Assembly: GCA_017408025.1 (NCBI GenBank)
Contig: JAFQVJ010000044.1
Location: 1-64,000 of the forward strand
DNA: 64,000 bases
Source: Lachnospiraceae bacterium
GTDB lineage: Bacteria > Bacillota > Clostridia > Lachnospirales > Lachnospiraceae
Direction: 5' to 3'
The position numbers and the translations under genes are program-made. Position 1 is the first letter of the stretch. Every line of letters starts with the position of its first letter. The notes below the pieces were generated by a model that saw only the letters and a list, made by a program, of their open reading frames with translations, ran no database searches and was not told where the DNA came from. Below, piece after piece: positions 49,149 to 64,000 of this stretch.

Positions 49149-49187
49149 AAATTGGACGATTGGTATGTCACACCAATCGTCCAATTT
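49149..49187 (+). terminator. argG terminator
   Basis: AAATTGGACGATTGG and CCAATCGTCCAATTT, fifteen-base perfect arms, 9-nt loop. Confidence 0.9.
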
Positions 49188-49285
49188 ACGCTGTAGAAGA
49201 ATTTACAAGCGTATATCATATTGTTTCTACTAGAATGACATGCTTATTTTTAGGTCCGCATGTATATAATAATAATAAATATAGA

Positions 49286-49360
49286 ATTACCAACTGAAAT
49301 AGTGTTAAGACTTGCTAGTAGGTAAAGCTAGCATGTGAATTATAAAGTCTTACCAACTAG
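49286..49360. repeat. Isolated unit of the 63-bp phased repeat
   Basis: TTACCAACT at 49287 and again at 49350 (63 bp apart), with AGTAGGTAA between (GGTAA at 49321). Spacings 34 then 29 are identical to those of the array at 60700-61055. The last arm lies within the 3' end of the flavin split-barrel gene. Confidence 0.65.
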
Positions 49361-56970: not shown

Positions 56971-58269
56971 CTATGCTTCAAAATATGCCTGAACCAGTTT
57001 CTCCATATACGCCTGGTCCTTCACACCCATAAGCTCTCTTGATGAATGCATCGCAAGAATCGGCACACCTACATCCACTGCTCTCATAGGAATATATTTA
57101 TTTGCTATTGTTCCAAGTGTACTACCTGTAGTGCCATCGGAGCGACAAGCGTACTTCTGATAAGGAATACCATTATTCTGACATATCATCTCAAGCATAG
57201 CTATAGTCTCACAATCAGTAACGTATGTCTGAGAGCTTGCGCGCTTAATGACGATACCATCATTCATCATATTTGTATTCGTAGGATCTGACTTTTCAGC
57301 CTTATTTGGATGAAGCGCATGAGCCACATCAATTGACAATAAAAATCCCTCAAGTAATGCCTGAATATAATCCTCTCTATCATATCCCAATGCGTTGTAC
57401 AGCTTCTCCATGACAAAGCCGAATAGATTGGAATCTGCACCCTGCTTTGTTCTGCTGCCAATTTCCTCATTATCATACAGAGCTATAACGTTTATGCCAT
57501 CCTCTCTCGAAGACTTTATGATGCCCTGTACACAAGCAACAACCGAAGTAATGTTATCAAGACGTGGTGCTGAGATAAATTCCTCATTCATACCAACTCT
57601 CTCGCCCTTGTCTGTATTGTATACATACAGTTCAAAATCAAGAATATCCTCCAGCTCCACCTGCAAATGCTTTGCCAGATATTCCATAAAGAAATTATCC
57701 TTGTTCATCTCTTCTTCAAATATAGTTGCAAGAGGTGCCATATCATTCTGACGGTTAAGCTCCACACCCTTATTAACCTCTCTATTCATATGAATGGCAA
57801 GGTTTGGAATAGTAAATATAGGCTTCTTGATGTCAATTATCTTCACTATAGGTTTAAAGCAGTTGTCACTCTTTAATGCTACTCTTCCTGCCACTGAAAG
57901 TGGTCTGTCAAGCCAGGTATTAAGTATCGGTCCACCATATACTTCAACATTTATTTTGCCATATCCCTTAGTAGACATTTCGGGATTCGGCTTTATATAC
58001 ATGCATGGATGGTCTGTGTGTGCTGCTGCCACACGAAGCATTCCCCTGTCGAACTCCCTGCCTATTTTAAACGCAAATACTGTTGAATCATATATATTCA
58101 GGAAATATCCATTTCCCCTTTCAACAAACCACTCATCAGAAAGCTTAAGCTCTGTAAAACCTGCCTGCTCCAGCTGTCGCATAGCCTCGTCCGCCGCTGT
58201 AAATGCACACGTTGAAATATTCGTGGCTACAATAAGTCGTTTTGCTGTATCGTCAAAATTGTAACTCAT
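56971..58269 (-). CDS. M18-family aminopeptidase
   Basis: 432 aa. Metal-binding motifs: AAAHTDHPCMYIKP near 83, RLDNITSVVACVQGI near 240, DNEEIGSRTKQGADS near 270, SIDVAHALHP near 315 and the late AMHSSRELMG. This is the aspartyl-aminopeptidase-like M18 family that trims peptides in the cytoplasm. Length is normal. GGGAGGAG precedes the ATG. Separate transcript, divergent from the F420-ligase-like gene. Confidence 0.94.
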   Translation of the reverse strand: MSYNFDDTAKRLIVATNISTCAFTAADEAMRQLEQAGFTELKLSDEWFVERGNGYFLNIYDSTVFAFKIGREFDRGMLRVAAAHTDHPCMYIKPNPEMSTKGYGKINVEVYGGPILNTWLDRPLSVAGRVALKSDNCFKPIVKIIDIKKPIFTIPNLAIHMNREVNKGVELNRQNDMAPLATIFEEEMNKDNFFMEYLAKHLQVELEDILDFELYVYNTDKGERVGMNEEFISAPRLDNITSVVACVQGIIKSSREDGINVIALYDNEEIGSRTKQGADSNLFGFVMEKLYNALGYDREDYIQALLEGFLLSIDVAHALHPNKAEKSDPTNTNMMNDGIVIKRASSQTYVTDCETIAMLEMICQNNGIPYQKYACRSDGTTGSTLGTIANKYIPMRAVDVGVPILAMHSSRELMGVKDQAYMEKLVQAYFEA

Positions 58270-58468
58270 AATCTCCTCCCGTTGTTTATATCCATATATC
58301 TCTTAGTTATCCTTTATTCCATTTCATATTTGACAACCATTGAAATTGTACCACAAAACTCTGTACAAAAAAACTCATTTCACAACATCATTTTTATATT
58401 ATTTTATATTAAATATCAAAAGAATAGTAATCTGTCCACTTTATCATATTAAATTCATAAATTTACTA

Positions 58469-58497
58469 TTGCCTTATTACTAATTTATATATATAAT
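58469..58497 (+). promoter_or_regulatory. Promoter of the F420-ligase-like gene
   Basis: TTGCCT (58469-58474) and TATAAT (58492-58497), 17-bp spacer; start near 58504. The rest of the 58270-58584 interval holds no gene. Confidence 0.7.
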
Positions 58498-58584
58498 ATT
58501 CGGTGGTGGAAAATGTGTAAATCCATATCAGGGATTTTATTATTTTAACTATTATTTATGCCTGAGAAAGGAAAGAAAAATACT

Positions 58585-59775
58585 ATGGAAAGAAAAGTAG
58601 GTACAGTTTCAAGAGGAATTCGTGGTCCAATCATCAGAGAAGGGGACAATCTGGTTGATATCGCAGTTACAAGTGTATTAGAGGCTGCTGAAAGTGAAGG
58701 CTTTAGCTTAGGGGACAGAGATGTTATAGCTCTTACAGAGTCTATCGTTGCTAGAGCTCAAGGCAATTACGCATCTGTTCAGAATATTGCAGATGATGTA
58801 AAAGCTAAGTTAGGCGGTGGCACTATCGGTGTTATCTTCCCTATTCTCTCTCGTAACCGTTTTGCAATCTGCCTTAAGGGTATTGCAATGGGCGCAAAGA
58901 AGGTTGTTTTAATGCTAAGCTACCCAAGTGACGAGGTTGGTAATGCATTATTGACATACGATCAGCTTGATGAGGCAGGCATCAACCCATACTCTGATGT
59001 ATTGACATTAGAGAAATATCGTGAATTATTCGGAGAGAATAAGCATGAGTTCACCGGTGTTGATTATGTTGAGTACTATTCAAATATTATAAAGGAAGCT
59101 GGTGCTGAGGTTGAAGTTATCTTCGCAAATCAGGCAAAAACTATTCTCGATTATACAGATTGCGTTCTTACATGTGATATTCACACAAGAGTAAGAACAA
59201 AGAGACTCTTAAAGGCTGCTGGTGCCAAGGCTGTATGTGGTCTTGATGACATCCTTACAAGCTCTGTAAATGGTAGTGGATACAATGAGAAGTACGGTCT
59301 TCTCGGTTCAAATAAATCAACCGAGGATAAGATTAAGCTTTTCCCTAAGGAGTGTACAGACCTTGTTGAGGCTATTCAGGCTGAAATCCTTGCTAAGACA
59401 GGCAAGCACGTAGAGGTTATGGTATATGGTGACGGTGCTTTCAAGGATCCTCAGGGTAAGATTTGGGAGTTAGCTGACCCAGTTGTCTCTCCTGCTTTCA
59501 CAAGCGGACTTGTAGGTACTCCAAACGAATTGAAGCTTAAGTACCTTGCAGATAATGATTTCAAGAACCTTAGCGGATCAGAATTGCAGGAAGCTATCAA
59601 GAACAGCATTAAGACAAAGGATTCTAACTTAGTTGGAAACATGGCTTCTCAAGGTACAACACCTAGACAGCTTACAGACTTAATAGGTTCACTTTGTGAC
59701 CTTACAAGTGGTTCAGGTGATAAAGGTACTCCTATCATCCTCATCCAGGGTTACTTTGATAACTTTACAGACTAA
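58585..59775 (+). CDS. Coenzyme F420-0:L-glutamate ligase-like (CofE-like) protein
   Basis: 396 aa from the ATG at 58585, with AAAGGAAAG upstream; another ATG nine codons earlier has no site. RGIRGPIIREGDNLVDI, LGDRDVIALTESIVARAQGN, FPILSRNRFAICLKGIA and MVYGDGAFKDPQGKIWEL (in part) match the PF01996 fold. In archaea and actinobacteria CofE adds glutamates to F420-0. Clostridia generally lack F420, and no cofC, cofD or cofGH is in the window, so a gamma-glutamyl ligase with another substrate is likelier. It is longer than archaeal CofE, with a C-terminal extension of about 130 residues. Codon choice suggests good expression. Confidence 0.82.
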   Translation: MERKVGTVSRGIRGPIIREGDNLVDIAVTSVLEAAESEGFSLGDRDVIALTESIVARAQGNYASVQNIADDVKAKLGGGTIGVIFPILSRNRFAICLKGIAMGAKKVVLMLSYPSDEVGNALLTYDQLDEAGINPYSDVLTLEKYRELFGENKHEFTGVDYVEYYSNIIKEAGAEVEVIFANQAKTILDYTDCVLTCDIHTRVRTKRLLKAAGAKAVCGLDDILTSSVNGSGYNEKYGLLGSNKSTEDKIKLFPKECTDLVEAIQAEILAKTGKHVEVMVYGDGAFKDPQGKIWELADPVVSPAFTSGLVGTPNELKLKYLADNDFKNLSGSELQEAIKNSIKTKDSNLVGNMASQGTTPRQLTDLIGSLCDLTSGSGDKGTPIILIQGYFDNFTD

Positions 59776-59797
59776 ATGCAGAAAATAGAACACATTC

Positions 59798-59830
59798 AAT
59801 CTCCTTGGAACTATTCTCCAAGGAGATTTT
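59798..59830 (+). terminator. Terminator of the F420-ligase-like gene
   Basis: AATCTCCTTGGA and TCCAAGGAGATT arms with a 7-nt loop, followed by TT. Located 23 bp after the stop codon. Confidence 0.85.
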
Positions 59831-59945
59831 CTATATATAGAATTAAAAAAATCTAATGATAGGCTACTCTACCTCTATTATTATCTGCCCTTTATCATAA
59901 GGCAGTTGTTTGGTGCGAAACGTAGGCAAAAACAATAAGTGAAAA

Positions 59946-59981
59946 GCGTCCAAGGTATTTTTATATTCTTACCTTGGACGC
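59946..59981 (-). terminator. Terminator-like hairpin after the GH18 remnant
   Basis: GCGTCCAAGGTA and TACCTTGGACGC arms, 12-nt loop, with TTTT on the minus strand. Confidence 0.7.
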
Positions 59982-60023
59982 GAGTAATATTATTCTTTAG
60001 TTCTCTTTCTCTACGTTCTGTCT

Positions 60024-60242
60024 TCATCGCTCAATCTCAAAATTTCCCTCCAACAGTATCCAGTTCGCCCTAAACAGCTGCATTATTTGCCAATACCCTG
60101 ATCCTCGCAGTCCAAACTCCTTGATTAAATCAAATTTCCCCTGCAAGCTTCTCACATCCTCAAACCAGACTTCATGCAACACGCCATTACTCTCATAATT
60201 AAAGTACGGGGTCTGCGCCACTTCATCAAACTGTAGCTTTTA
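60024..60242 (-). pseudogene. GH18 / YaaH-type glycosidase, C-terminal remnant
   Basis: About 72 codons: LQFDEVAQTPYFNYES, HEVWFEDVRSL, GLRGSGYWQIMQLFRANW (each a part). This is the end of the GH18 barrel as in spore germination protein YaaH: the WFED-type strand and the GSGYW...W end. A TAA lies directly upstream in frame, so the rest of the gene is gone. The terminator at 59946 survives. Confidence 0.7.
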
Positions 60243-60258
60243 ATCTTCTTTTGTAGCA

Positions 60259-60501
60259 TTAATCCATAAATGCATCTATTAATCTAACTCCTGCTGCCAT
60301 TTTCTTAAGCTGTCTTAACTCACTTCTCATATAAATTTCTAACATTTCCACTTCTTCCTGTGTAAAACCCTTGTTAGATATGATGGTGCAGTCTGGTATC
60401 CTACCTTCTGCCATACGCTGTCCATCAGAAAATGACACAAAGGCATACTTTTCTCCATCCTTCATGCATACAGCCGATACCGTCATATTCAGTTCATCCA
60501 T
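60259..60501 (-). CDS. Small conserved protein of unknown function
   Basis: 80 aa from the ATG at 60501, with GGGAGG upstream; the frame could begin five codons earlier. The first half is beta-rich (LNMTVSAVCMKDGEKYAFVSF, EGRIPDCTII) and the second half helical (FTQEEVEMLEIYMRSELRQL, then KKMAAGVRLIDAFM). Similar short proteins occur in other Lachnospiraceae to my recollection, without function. It ends just before the GH18 remnant, 16 bp away. Confidence 0.65.
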   Translation of the reverse strand: MDELNMTVSAVCMKDGEKYAFVSFSDGQRMAEGRIPDCTIISNKGFTQEEVEMLEIYMRSELRQLKKMAAGVRLIDAFMD

Positions 60502-60699
60502 TTCATTGCCTCCCACACTTTTTTATTATTATATTTCATTGTTATCCTAGGCGCAACCATTTTTAAATTCTAATTTATGCGCGAAGCAAGTCCACATCAT
60601 ATCTATCGTCCTATGTACGCTTTAGAACAAACCTCTTGGGCGTACATATATAACGTAGCTATCTTGATTATTTCTTAAGCAATCATAACATATTATATA

Positions 60700-61055
60700 T
60701 TACCCACTATAATCATAAGAGTTAATTCCAGTTGGTAATTATGCGTATGCAAGAAATTAACATTACCAACTACATGGAGAATAGTTGATTTCAGTAGGTA
60801 ATTCTACGGATACAAGAAATATTGATTACCAGCTGCATGGATAAAAATTTATTCCAGTGGGTAATTTTGCGTACACAAGAAATTAACGTTACCAACTGAA
60901 AGGATGAAAATTGTTTCCAGTAGGTAATTTTGTGCATACATAAAACTAACATTACCTACTACATGAATAAAAGTTGTTTCCAGCAGGTTATTTCGCAGAT
61001 ACATGAAGCTATTATTACCTACTGTAAGGATGCTAGTTTACTTCAGTAGGTAAAA
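60700..61055. repeat. Phased 63-bp array of alternating inverted arms
   Basis: TTACC arms start at 60700, 60763, 60826, 60889, 60952 and 61015. GGTAA-type arms (CAGtxGGTAA) start at 60729, 60792, 60855, 60918, 60981 and 61044. Every step is exactly 63 bp, with 29 and 34 bp between alternate arm cores. Arm bases covary in some units: TTGG with CCAA in unit 1, TAGG with CCTA in unit 4. All frames contain stops, so it is not coding. Sequence between arms is also similar from unit to unit, so it is not a CRISPR. Confidence 0.85.
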
Positions 61056-61071
61056 GACAGACGACGAAAAC

Positions 61072-61123
61072 AAGAGAGTATATATCTTTCGTAACTAATA
61101 ATCAGAAAAATATATACTCTCTT
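61072..61123 (-). terminator. Terminator of the MacB-like exporter gene
   Basis: AAGAGAGTATATAT and ATATATACTCTCTT, fourteen-base arms, 24-nt loop; the gene's stop is at 61162. The U-run is interrupted (TTGTTTTC). Confidence 0.6.
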
Positions 61124-61161
61124 ATTGTATAGTCGCCGTTTTTAGCACTCCAAATAAAAAT

Positions 61162-64000
61162 TTACTCTGTTCTGAGGGCTACTACTGGATCCTTCTTTGC
61201 CGCACTTCTTGAAGGTATAATACCTGAAATAAGTGTAAGTATAACACTGATTCCTACAAGAATAGCTGCTGCTGGTACTGGTAACATGGCACTTAAGTTA
61301 CCTATACCTGTTACCTCATGAAGAATCATGTTAATAGGTATACAAAGGATATATGTTACCACTACGCCTAAAAGTCCAGCTGAAAATCCAACTATCATAG
61401 TCTCTGCATTGAACATTCTCGATACATTCTTCTTTGAAGCACCAATAGCACGAAGAATACCGATTTCCTTTGTACGCTCCTGCACAGATATCAGTGTGAT
61501 AACACCAATCATGATAGAAGAAACAACAAGTGAAATAGCAACAAATGCAATCAACACATATGTTATAGCATCAATGATTGTTGTTATAGATGACATCATA
61601 ATGCCCACATAATCTGTATATTTTATCTGTTTGATATCCTCTACATTCTTATTGTAATCAGCAATTGCATCTGTGATTATATCTTTATTCTCAAATGATG
61701 ATGCATAAATGTTTATGGCTGCTGGCGACTCCATATCAATATATCCCATAGCAAGGAGATTATCCTCGTATGTTGACTCAGAGAACACTAATACTTCATC
61801 ATAGTATGCTGCACACTCTTCAGTCTTATATGTCTCCATTTCCATTGTAAGTGCACCGACAAGCTGTTCCGGAGTCATAGCTGCCATCTGTCCTGCAACC
61901 TCTGCTGCATACTGAGCCTTAACCTGCTCTGTTATAGCAGTTGCAATGAGCTCTTTTAACTCCTCGTCAGTCATATTCGCAAGATATGCCGCTATTTCCT
62001 CTGCGTTTACGCTCATCTGCTCGCCCATAGCCTGTGCCATCTGCGCTTCAATCTGCTCTCTTGTCATAGTTCCAAGTACAGCATCTACCTGTTGCTGCAC
62101 AAGTTCATTTGAAGGTATACTCTTGATAGCAATATACGTAGCTGCTTTCTCTGAATCAGAAAGACTTGCAATATATTCTCTGAAAGCCTTCTCCTTTTCT
62201 GCATCACTTAAAGAACCTGTTGAAGAATCAAATGGAAGTCCAGTCAACACATCCTTTGTAGGATTGGCAAGCTGTGCCTCTATTACAGCTGTTCCCTCAG
62301 CCTTCTCTATAAGATACTCTGTAAGCATCTTTGTATAGCCGATATTTCCTGTAAGCATTGTAACACCAGCATCCTCATTTGGACGGATAATACCTGTCAC
62401 CTTAAGAGTTAAAGCATTATCATAGAGATAACGAAGTCCTGCCTCTGTCTCTCTCAAATCTGTGTATAAACCAGTTGCTTCATCATAGGCATAGCAATCT
62501 GCGTTAAGCACTGTCTTAAATTCCATATTACATATTTCTTCATATGACCACTTAGTTTCTTCAACATCAAGCTGTGTGCCATTCATCGCAGCATCCATCA
62601 GACTTTCAATGCTCTCCTCTGGCAATAATCCCAATGCATATAATGTAATATCATCTAACTCATTATTTTCGTCTACAACAAGTACTATCTCATCATAGCT
62701 GTTTGGCCATGAACCATAGATTACATCATACTGCTCCTTAAGCAAATCATTGATAGGATCACCATCATTTCCTGTAAGCATTTCCTGCCAAAGCTTTACC
62801 TGCATTGTATTCATTGATGATGACATACTGCTCATAACACCCATGCTCTCCATAGATGACTGCATTGCTGCCATGTCAATATTCATATACTTAAGAATAA
62901 GCTCATGAAGTATTTCTTCTGTATTAGATGGAATGATTGCTCCATCCACATTCTTAGTATATATCTGCATATCAAGGTTATATGCATATCCTATGCCATT
63001 GATTGCCTCTGAAAGCTTTGAATCCTTCTTAGCCATCTCTGTCTCTAAAAACTCCTTAAATGATTTAAGGTCATTCTCCTGCTGCTCAAGATTATTCAAT
63101 GCATTCATCATATCGTACAGCGCTGATTTCTTGTAAACTGCTTCCGTATCATGAGACTTTTCTTCTGATGTAAGATTCATAAATGTTTCCATCAATGTAG
63201 AAAGCTCTACTGTTGTAGCCTCAAGTGTCAATGGATATGATGACAATGTATTCTCCTGAACTGTATCAATATATGTTGTCATACCTGTTGAGACAGCTAA
63301 AATAAGTGCAATACCTATAATACCTATGGATCCTGCAAATGCTGTGAGGGTTGTACGTCCCTTCTTTGTAAAGAGATTCTTAAGCGAAAGCATAAATGAT
63401 GTTGCAAATGACATAGATGGCTTCTTAACCTTCTTTGAAGAAACCTTTTCCTTCTCACAAAGCTCTCTCTCCCTCTTTATCTCTTCATCTGTAAGTGGTT
63501 GTGAATCGCCTGTAATCTTACCATCCAGCATACGAATAATTCTTGATGAATACTGCTCTGCAAGCTCTGGGTTATGTGTAACCATAACGATGAGACGGTC
63601 CTTAGAAATATTTTTTAATATCTCCATAACCTGTACACTTGTCTCTGTATCAAGAGCTCCTGTTGGCTCATCCGCAAGAATGATATCTGGATTATTTACC
63701 AACGCTCTGGCAATGGCAACTCTCTGCATCTGACCACCAGACATAGCATTTGGCTTCTTATAAAGCTGATCACCAAGTCCCACTTCCTCAAGAGCCTTCT
63801 TTGCTCTCTCTTTACGCTCCGCCTTAGACACACCTGAAAGTGTAAGTGCGATTTCTACATTCTGTAGCACAGTCTGATGAGGTATAAGATTATAGCTCTG
63901 GAATACGAAACCTACCGAATGATTACGATATGAATCCCAGTCTCGATCCTTATATTCCTTTGTAGATGTGCCATTGATAATCAAATCACCCTCTGTGTAT
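61162..64000 (-). CDS. MacB-like ABC exporter, ATPase fused to FtsX permease (5' end outside window)
   Basis: At least 945 aa; the frame runs off the right edge, so Walker A is not visible. Visible ATPase parts: [40 protein letters not shown] and MVTHNPELA. After a linker (near 185-200) comes the first permease helix, then a very large extracytoplasmic domain of about 550 residues rich in Met, Ala and Glu helices, and three C-terminal FtsX helices (SSIMIGVITLISVQERTKEIGILRAIG as the coupling loop, in part). The fusion and the repeated MTxEQ/MTDEEL segments suggest an elongated helical stalk. Likely exports peptides or proteins; substrate unknown. Confidence 0.92.
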   Translation of the reverse strand, partial: YTEGDLIINGTSTKEYKDRDWDSYRNHSVGFVFQSYNLIPHQTVLQNVEIALTLSGVSKAERKERAKKALEEVGLGDQLYKKPNAMSGGQMQRVAIARALVNNPDIILADEPTGALDTETSVQVMEILKNISKDRLIVMVTHNPELAEQYSSRIIRMLDGKITGDSQPLTDEEIKRERELCEKEKVSSKKVKKPSMSFATSFMLSLKNLFTKKGRTTLTAFAGSIGIIGIALILAVSTGMTTYIDTVQENTLSSYPLTLEATTVELSTLMETFMNLTSEEKSHDTEAVYKKSALYDMMNALNNLEQQENDLKSFKEFLETEMAKKDSKLSEAINGIGYAYNLDMQIYTKNVDGAIIPSNTEEILHELILKYMNIDMAAMQSSMESMGVMSSMSSSMNTMQVKLWQEMLTGNDGDPINDLLKEQYDVIYGSWPNSYDEIVLVVDENNELDDITLYALGLLPEESIESLMDAAMNGTQLDVEETKWSYEEICNMEFKTVLNADCYAYDEATGLYTDLRETEAGLRYLYDNALTLKVTGIIRPNEDAGVTMLTGNIGYTKMLTEYLIEKAEGTAVIEAQLANPTKDVLTGLPFDSSTGSLSDAEKEKAFREYIASLSDSEKAATYIAIKSIPSNELVQQQVDAVLGTMTREQIEAQMAQAMGEQMSVNAEEIAAYLANMTDEELKELIATAITEQVKAQYAAEVAGQMAAMTPEQLVGALTMEMETYKTEECAAYYDEVLVFSESTYEDNLLAMGYIDMESPAAINIYASSFENKDIITDAIADYNKNVEDIKQIKYTDYVGIMMSSITTIIDAITYVLIAFVAISLVVSSIMIGVITLISVQERTKEIGILRAIGASKKNVSRMFNAETMIVGFSAGLLGVVVTYILCIPINMILHEVTGIGNLSAMLPVPAAAILVGISVILTLISGIIPSRSAAKKDPVVALRTE

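Follow-up and report, generated by a model that had tools for sequence, protein, structure and literature searches.

Positions 60700–61053 of this window (the whole stretch of 64,000 nucleotides analysed here) raise the question of why short inverted arms should keep an exact spacing while the sequence between them drifts. The array is real. It comprises twelve alternating 9-bp arms in six 63-bp units, the last of them partial (60700..61053, no strand assigned; arm parsing, Tandem Repeats Finder and shuffles). Two arm types alternate, a T-type (TTACCNACT) and a G-type (AGTNGGTAA), with starts at 60700, 60730, 60763, 60793, 60826, 60856, 60889, 60919, 60952, 60982, 61015 and 61045. The start-to-start distances are 30 and 33 bp throughout, with a sum of 63; the original prediction, counting on TTACC and GGTAA, had given the twelve arms a constant 34/29 spacing, which is the same arrangement. 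Exact TTACC or GGTAA cores are present in 11 of the 12 arms (the exception reads GGTTA), and these 11 cores in register compare with 2 in the best of 300 dinucleotide-preserving shuffles. Tandem Repeats Finder reported a period of 63 with 74% matches and a score of 280, the top of 15 rows in the window. Identity among the five full units was 85.6% for the arms versus 66.2% for the inter-arm bases, in agreement with the proposed drift of the sequence between arms.

The array was also predicted to be non-coding, and each of the six frames contains 3–14 stop codons across it, so that none is open. A coding repeat, for which 63 bp would be 21 codons, was ruled out for this array by these interruptions. 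No listed open reading frame of at least 60 amino acids touches 60517–61161, the 645-bp gene-free interval reported at the outset. Open frames do run across some arrays elsewhere (200 and 123 codons in the related genome G001, 87 codons in G416, both described below), but in arrays with 30/33 spacing the matching frame runs into a TAG within the arm. Rfam models compared with positions 58000–62000 gave no match in the array and two sub-threshold matches, both outside it.

Arms and spacing recur with unrelated inter-arm DNA

The array belongs to a family that is dispersed and extragenic. The window's own genome (G000; 2.35 Mb, 71 contigs) contains ten other places that match the array stretch. 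In nine of these, one to three arm pairs come after the same leader, which is present whole or in part, and the remaining one, on C25, has the unit without the leader; unit number differs among the copies, and the leader is common to them. Four arrays, on C3, C13, C16 and C40, have the arms and the spacing with other inter-arm sequence, the steps being 31/32 on C3, 31/33 (sum 64) on C13 and 30/33 on C16, and array places found in this genome number 15. The C16 array, located behind argG, is the second array of the window (49287..49358, no strand assigned; arm parsing), with three arms at 49287, 49317 and 49350. It is preceded by a diverged leader (49180..49286, plus strand; leader comparison) that includes, by eye, the pairs ACGCT..AGCGT and CATGC..GCATG and is laid out similarly to the leader of the 60700 array. 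Near 34.3 kb on C40 (L050, about 1500–1605), reading by eye showed another array, of four arms spaced 30/33.

The spacing also recurs in other species and genera. A nucleotide search of 40 related genomes with the array stretch gave 0 matches at E 0.001. A three-arm pattern scan of the named genome contigs identified the Lachnospiraceae MAG SIG305 (G001), together with one match of other spacing in a Tannerella MAG. G001 is a second species in the genus of the window's organism and carries at least eight arrays, nearly all with 63-bp units. Seven of them were parsed (two on C4, one each on C11, C24, C27 and C33, and L067, by its coordinates C3 at 11.25 kb), with steps of 31/32 apart from a single opening step of 30 and a single closing step of 31; the eighth lies on C3 at 21.0 kb. 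A relaxed pattern, among 195 relatives, matched G000, G001 and G066 and was absent from six other searched members of the genus. Four other genera carry like arrays, with units of 63 bp in G416, 63 bp in G066, 62 bp in G355 and 64–65 bp in G320. The two long arrays of G416 came from a pattern scan of 397 genomes of the family; the relaxed pattern over 397 family genomes added G066, G355 and G320, and, as it matched 6 of the 397 genomes versus 5 of 397 for its control, these three rest on the reading of their arrays. In G320, the distance from TTACC to GGTA is 34 in 6 of 6 pairs, the linker is varying and longer, and the arms are degenerate. The arm centre is genome-specific (TA, GC or AC), and both arms follow it in G066 and in one of the two G355 pairs.

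Several candidates were set aside. G229 was dropped from the relaxed-pattern matches. For the single matches in G161 and G458, reversed-pattern controls were positive in 10 of 397 and 15 of 391 genomes. The three matches in G502, from another family of the class, were not counted as an array, being isolated 39-bp palindromes (TTACCTACYAAA..TTTAGTAGGTAA; L104, L105) about 180 bp apart. Separately, short direct repeats (ACAATAAAGCTCAAATGC) adjoin the 63-bp array of G416 at about 2170–2290 of L099, and G001 contains tandem arrays of short hairpins with periods of 57 and 58 bp at C27:6683–6807 and C23:22324–22516 (L413, L425).

With gaps of 8–38 bp allowed, distinct TTACC..GGTAA pairs had gaps of 21 (13 pairs, four of them single palindromes from G161 and G502), 22 (22 pairs) and 38 bp (one pair), and distinct GGTAA..TTACC pairs had gaps of 23 (17 pairs) and 24 bp (11 pairs); viral loci were left out of these counts, and some loci were fetched with narrower ranges. 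Unit length was exactly 63 bp in 68 of the 70 full units of seven array sets, a count that does not cover three G000 arrays (C3, C13 and the one at 49 kb) and that was made with a parser taking steps of 29–34 bp only, larger breaks ending a chain uncounted. The two off-length units (61 and 62 bp) are both first or last in their array. Over the same 70 units, a spanning tree required 473 substitutions, which may be up to twice the true minimum. When the inter-arm DNA of 11 array families was compared without gaps, one unit per family, 53 of the 55 comparisons were without similarity at p ≤ 0.01. The inter-arm DNA is alike in the pairs G416 C26/C36 and G000 C3/main family, so the families are not all mutually independent. 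Because length was kept against about 470 substitutions and similarity between families was almost always lost, the spacing is conserved and not simply the legacy of one young duplication.

The original prediction of selection on geometry is supported by a spacing that stays identical or almost so across arrays that differ in inter-arm DNA, species and genus. It had named variable unit length in relatives, or a young duplication with its spacing shared nowhere else, as evidence to the contrary; the outcome was mostly in its favor, since the related species has 63-bp units and other arrays share the spacing. The units are, however, 64 bp in one G000 array (C13), 62 bp in G355 and 64–65 bp in G320, so that a length of exactly six helical turns is not universal. 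By arithmetic, steps of 30–33 bp correspond to 2.86–3.14 turns at 10.5 bp per turn, so that the arms deviate from one face by no more than about 50 degrees.

When 796 kb of G001 were scanned for cores alone, with 24–40 bp allowed, five chains emerged, all within arrays, and the reversed sequence gave none; Tandem Repeats Finder over the same 796 kb listed no other tandem repeat of period 63. The isolated consensus arm TTACCTACT occurs 6 times in G001 versus 5.3 expected, and other isolated arm-like 9-mers occur at up to twice expectation. Because isolated consensus arms are at chance level, the functional unit would be the array and not a lone site.

The carrier element and its gene context

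The array lies within a mosaic, MITE-like element of 601 bp (60564..61164, no strand assigned; copy comparison and end search) that holds the leader, the array and a right hairpin. The leader, or left domain (60581..60699, plus strand; copy comparison), stands beside the array in other copies, whole or in part, and contains a 9-bp inverted repeat (TATGTACGC at 60612–60620, GCGTACATA at 60640–60648) and, by eye, TGATT..AATCA. The right hairpin module (61069..61126, no strand assigned; repeat search) has 22-bp arms that are 91% complementary, and parts of it are dispersed in the genome; a weak sub-threshold Rfam match to mir-329 over the hairpin module at 61060–61137 is taken as chance. At the left end, the terminal repeat TAAATTCTAATTT (60564..60576, plus strand; end search) has two mismatches to TAAATTCTTGTTT, and no long reading frame abuts it. 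At the right end, the first three bases of the terminal repeat TAAATTTTTATTT (61152..61164, minus strand; end search and ORF list) double as the stop codon for the ABC transporter gene at 61162–63984.

This coincidence extends to the other copies. Both terminal ends were found in 7 of the 11 copies in G000, one with a left end of three mismatches, and these seven mosaic elements measure 522–771 bp with both ends taken, the ends being like TAAATTCTTGTTT. At 19 of 21 ends (15 of 17 plus 4 of 4), an open frame of at least 220 codons stops exactly at the first codon of the end; the ends were picked by likeness and two have three mismatches (C48b right, and C61 left, which was chosen from two candidates), without which the count is 17 of 19. 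The end motif itself starts with TAA, so what matters is that the frame agrees and that a long gene precedes the end; one coinciding stop is TGA instead of TAA. The elements concerned are the one at 60564–61164 and those of loci L002–L008, L011, L012, L028 and L069; between convergent genes, such elements span from stop to stop. Elsewhere in the window, no listed gene end carries the motif, apart from a weak form at argG. In the third of G001 examined, two orthologues at 45% identity or more were found (64% and 79%), both of which stop at the corresponding codon; no array lies in the 700 bases behind the ABC gene of G001, and the neighbor gene is on another contig, so the site is not syntenic. 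A terminal-repeat match by a gene end in L050 was dropped as an element end on rereading, and no target-site duplication was clearly seen at the element ends.

Among the 19 arrays with both flanks in the ORF lists, and with short ORFs ignored, 8 lie between convergent genes, 10 between tandem genes and 1 between divergent genes. The flanking genes are ordinary and differing, and in these lists no shared gene or linked enzyme gene was seen beside the arrays. A survey of 11 genomes, which are incomplete, for the Y1 transposase domain PF01797 found none in G001, G066, G002 and G120, one each in G000 and G416, and examples in G003–G007, in which no array pattern turned up. As far as incomplete genomes allow, a REPIN driven by a RAYT was rejected, since array-rich G001 is without PF01797.

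A phage origin was likewise rejected. A strict viral scan for the array pattern found nothing; among the at least 120 stretches listed by a looser scan the gap was 14 in 47 pairs and 22 in 1, and among the matches listed the period was 60 in at least 53 and 63 in at least 8. All 47 listed matches of the commonest viral class lie in open frames of at least 100 codons. Locus L202 looks like an intragenic repeat, and on five contigs the four alternating cores stand at different, irregular steps.

Arm pairing and candidate explanations

Some arm pairs were suggested to change in a compensating way, which is not borne out in G000. The variable sixth bases of the arms match in 20% of 30 TTACC..GGTAA pairs (24 of the 30 mismatch) and in 35% of 20 GGTAA..TTACC pairs, versus 24% in a random reference of 95 within-array pairs, and pairing of the bases that adjoin the arms is, when pooled, 35% and 31% versus a background of 30%. 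A row of hairpins, either in RNA (as a 3' UTR stabilizer or a processing site) or in single-stranded DNA, is an explanation to which we therefore give a low probability: loops of 21–24 nt would not require an exact length, and a search of 60400–61300 found no terminator-like site. The arrays do lie mostly downstream of genes, and folding of either strand is more stable than in 100 shuffles (z of −3.8 and −4.3), but any inverted repeat folds well. Arm centres agree in the G066 pair, in one of the two G355 pairs and, at the sixth base, in 15 of 17 G416 pairs (88% versus 55%), and G416 contains whole units with GC arms. Of the two roles first proposed, protein binding or a hairpin, the hairpin is thus weakened by the absent covariation in G000. 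We prefer a protein that reads each arm because the G000 arm pairs do not covary, flank pairing is near background and low folding energy is generic.

The reading that we favor, tentatively and with chances somewhat short of even, is of an interspersed, BIME/BOX-like repeat in which each arm would serve a putative DNA-binding protein as a half-site on one helix face. Its conserved content is an inverted-repeat site of 39–40 bp, TTACCTACT, 21–22 bp and AGTAGGTAA, repeated with a linker of mostly 23–24 bp, which sets consecutive arms roughly three helical turns apart and on the same side. A putative sequence-specific protein would bind the arms, neighboring copies may touch along that face, and selection would act on the phase of the arms and their sequence but spare the inter-arm DNA. 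Copies would expand by duplication of 63-bp units and, in G000, would travel inside the mosaic MITE-like elements. Several points count against this reading: the G320 linker steps of 34–35 bp arm to arm (3.2–3.3 turns) put its arms off one face, G000 C13 sums to 64, no gene is shared beside the arrays, and some arm-like 9-mers exceed expectation in G001. Tandem duplication alone, moreover, preserves length within an array.

Another rival is a neutral satellite, in which one old palindromic array would have been spread by mobile elements and kept uniform by unequal crossing-over and gene conversion, its length being inherited and not selected. Units are indeed alike within an array and vary in number by copy, the G000 copies share a leader, and periods of 62, 64 and 65 exist. 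We nevertheless regard such a satellite as unlikely, because arms and spacing were kept in the family pairs that lost inter-arm similarity, and because length changed in only the two terminal units mentioned above, versus 4 of 10 leaders (C21, C31, C61, C65) that vary by 2–4 bp, in slip-prone TA runs. The other tandem repeats of G001, with their other periods, also argue against it. It is very improbable that the spacing is instead the measure of a fixed-reach recombinase or nuclease that adds or cuts units at intervals of about 31 bp, and not a property of the array's use: some boundaries do fall at an arm (by eye, in the G001 arrays on C24 and C27), but in any one array the inter-arm stretches nearly copy each other and are not new sequence, and no linked enzyme gene was seen in the flanks.

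A bolder form of the favored protein-binding reading is that the arrays are a new kind of platform, scattered in Lachnospiraceae, for a sequence-specific protein that assembles along DNA at a three-helical-turn step, with only arm sequence and helical phase selected; this we consider rather unlikely. Sequence is the usual basis for defining interspersed repeats in bacteria, and in these arrays geometry outlasts sequence, which makes what such repeats bind directly testable. The protein, if identified, would be a factor that organizes bacterial DNA or binds partners and that obeys a clear rule of spacing.

Comparison with known repeats

The open-access literature that we searched held no description of such arrays. 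As originally stated, they are not CRISPRs: they share regular repeats and fixed spacing with CRISPRs, but their inter-arm sequence is repeated and not made of unique spacers, and their arms are 9 bp. The G000 carriers resemble MITEs in being dispersed and in having terminal inverted repeats, but their ends coincide with stop codons and no target duplication was recognised; other arrays were seen without these carrier ends.

The BIME/REP arrays of enterobacteria, Pseudomonas and Xanthomonas are described as extragenic, palindromic, regularly spaced, alternating and mostly downstream of genes (PMC2817692, PMC3733652), and a REP unit as a hairpin of 20–40 bp with an unpaired GTAG or CGTC tag (PMC3733652). 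The arrays are similar in their short, extragenic, palindromic and alternating arms and their regular spacing. They differ in that an arm appears to be one half-site, with no stem-loop of its own seen; in that GTAG sits inside the arm and is variable (AGTTGG, AGGCGG and AGGTGG arms), with little pairing beyond the arms; in the lack of a match to a RAYT-type transposase in G001; and in their array places in G000, which do not amount to hundreds of copies. The BOX element of Streptococcus pneumoniae, as far as the accessible text of its description goes, has fixed ends and a variable number of a middle module, is over-represented between convergent genes, and has a boxB that is not described as an alternating-arm array (PMC3049150). 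The G000 copies have a leader, a variable unit number and shared ends, and may parallel the boxA-(boxB)n-boxC layout. Because the tag, the unit structure and the transposase of REP/REPIN do not fit them, we do not file the arrays as REP; by analogy, they are probably best placed as an interspersed repeat that resembles BIME and BOX in layout and gene context.
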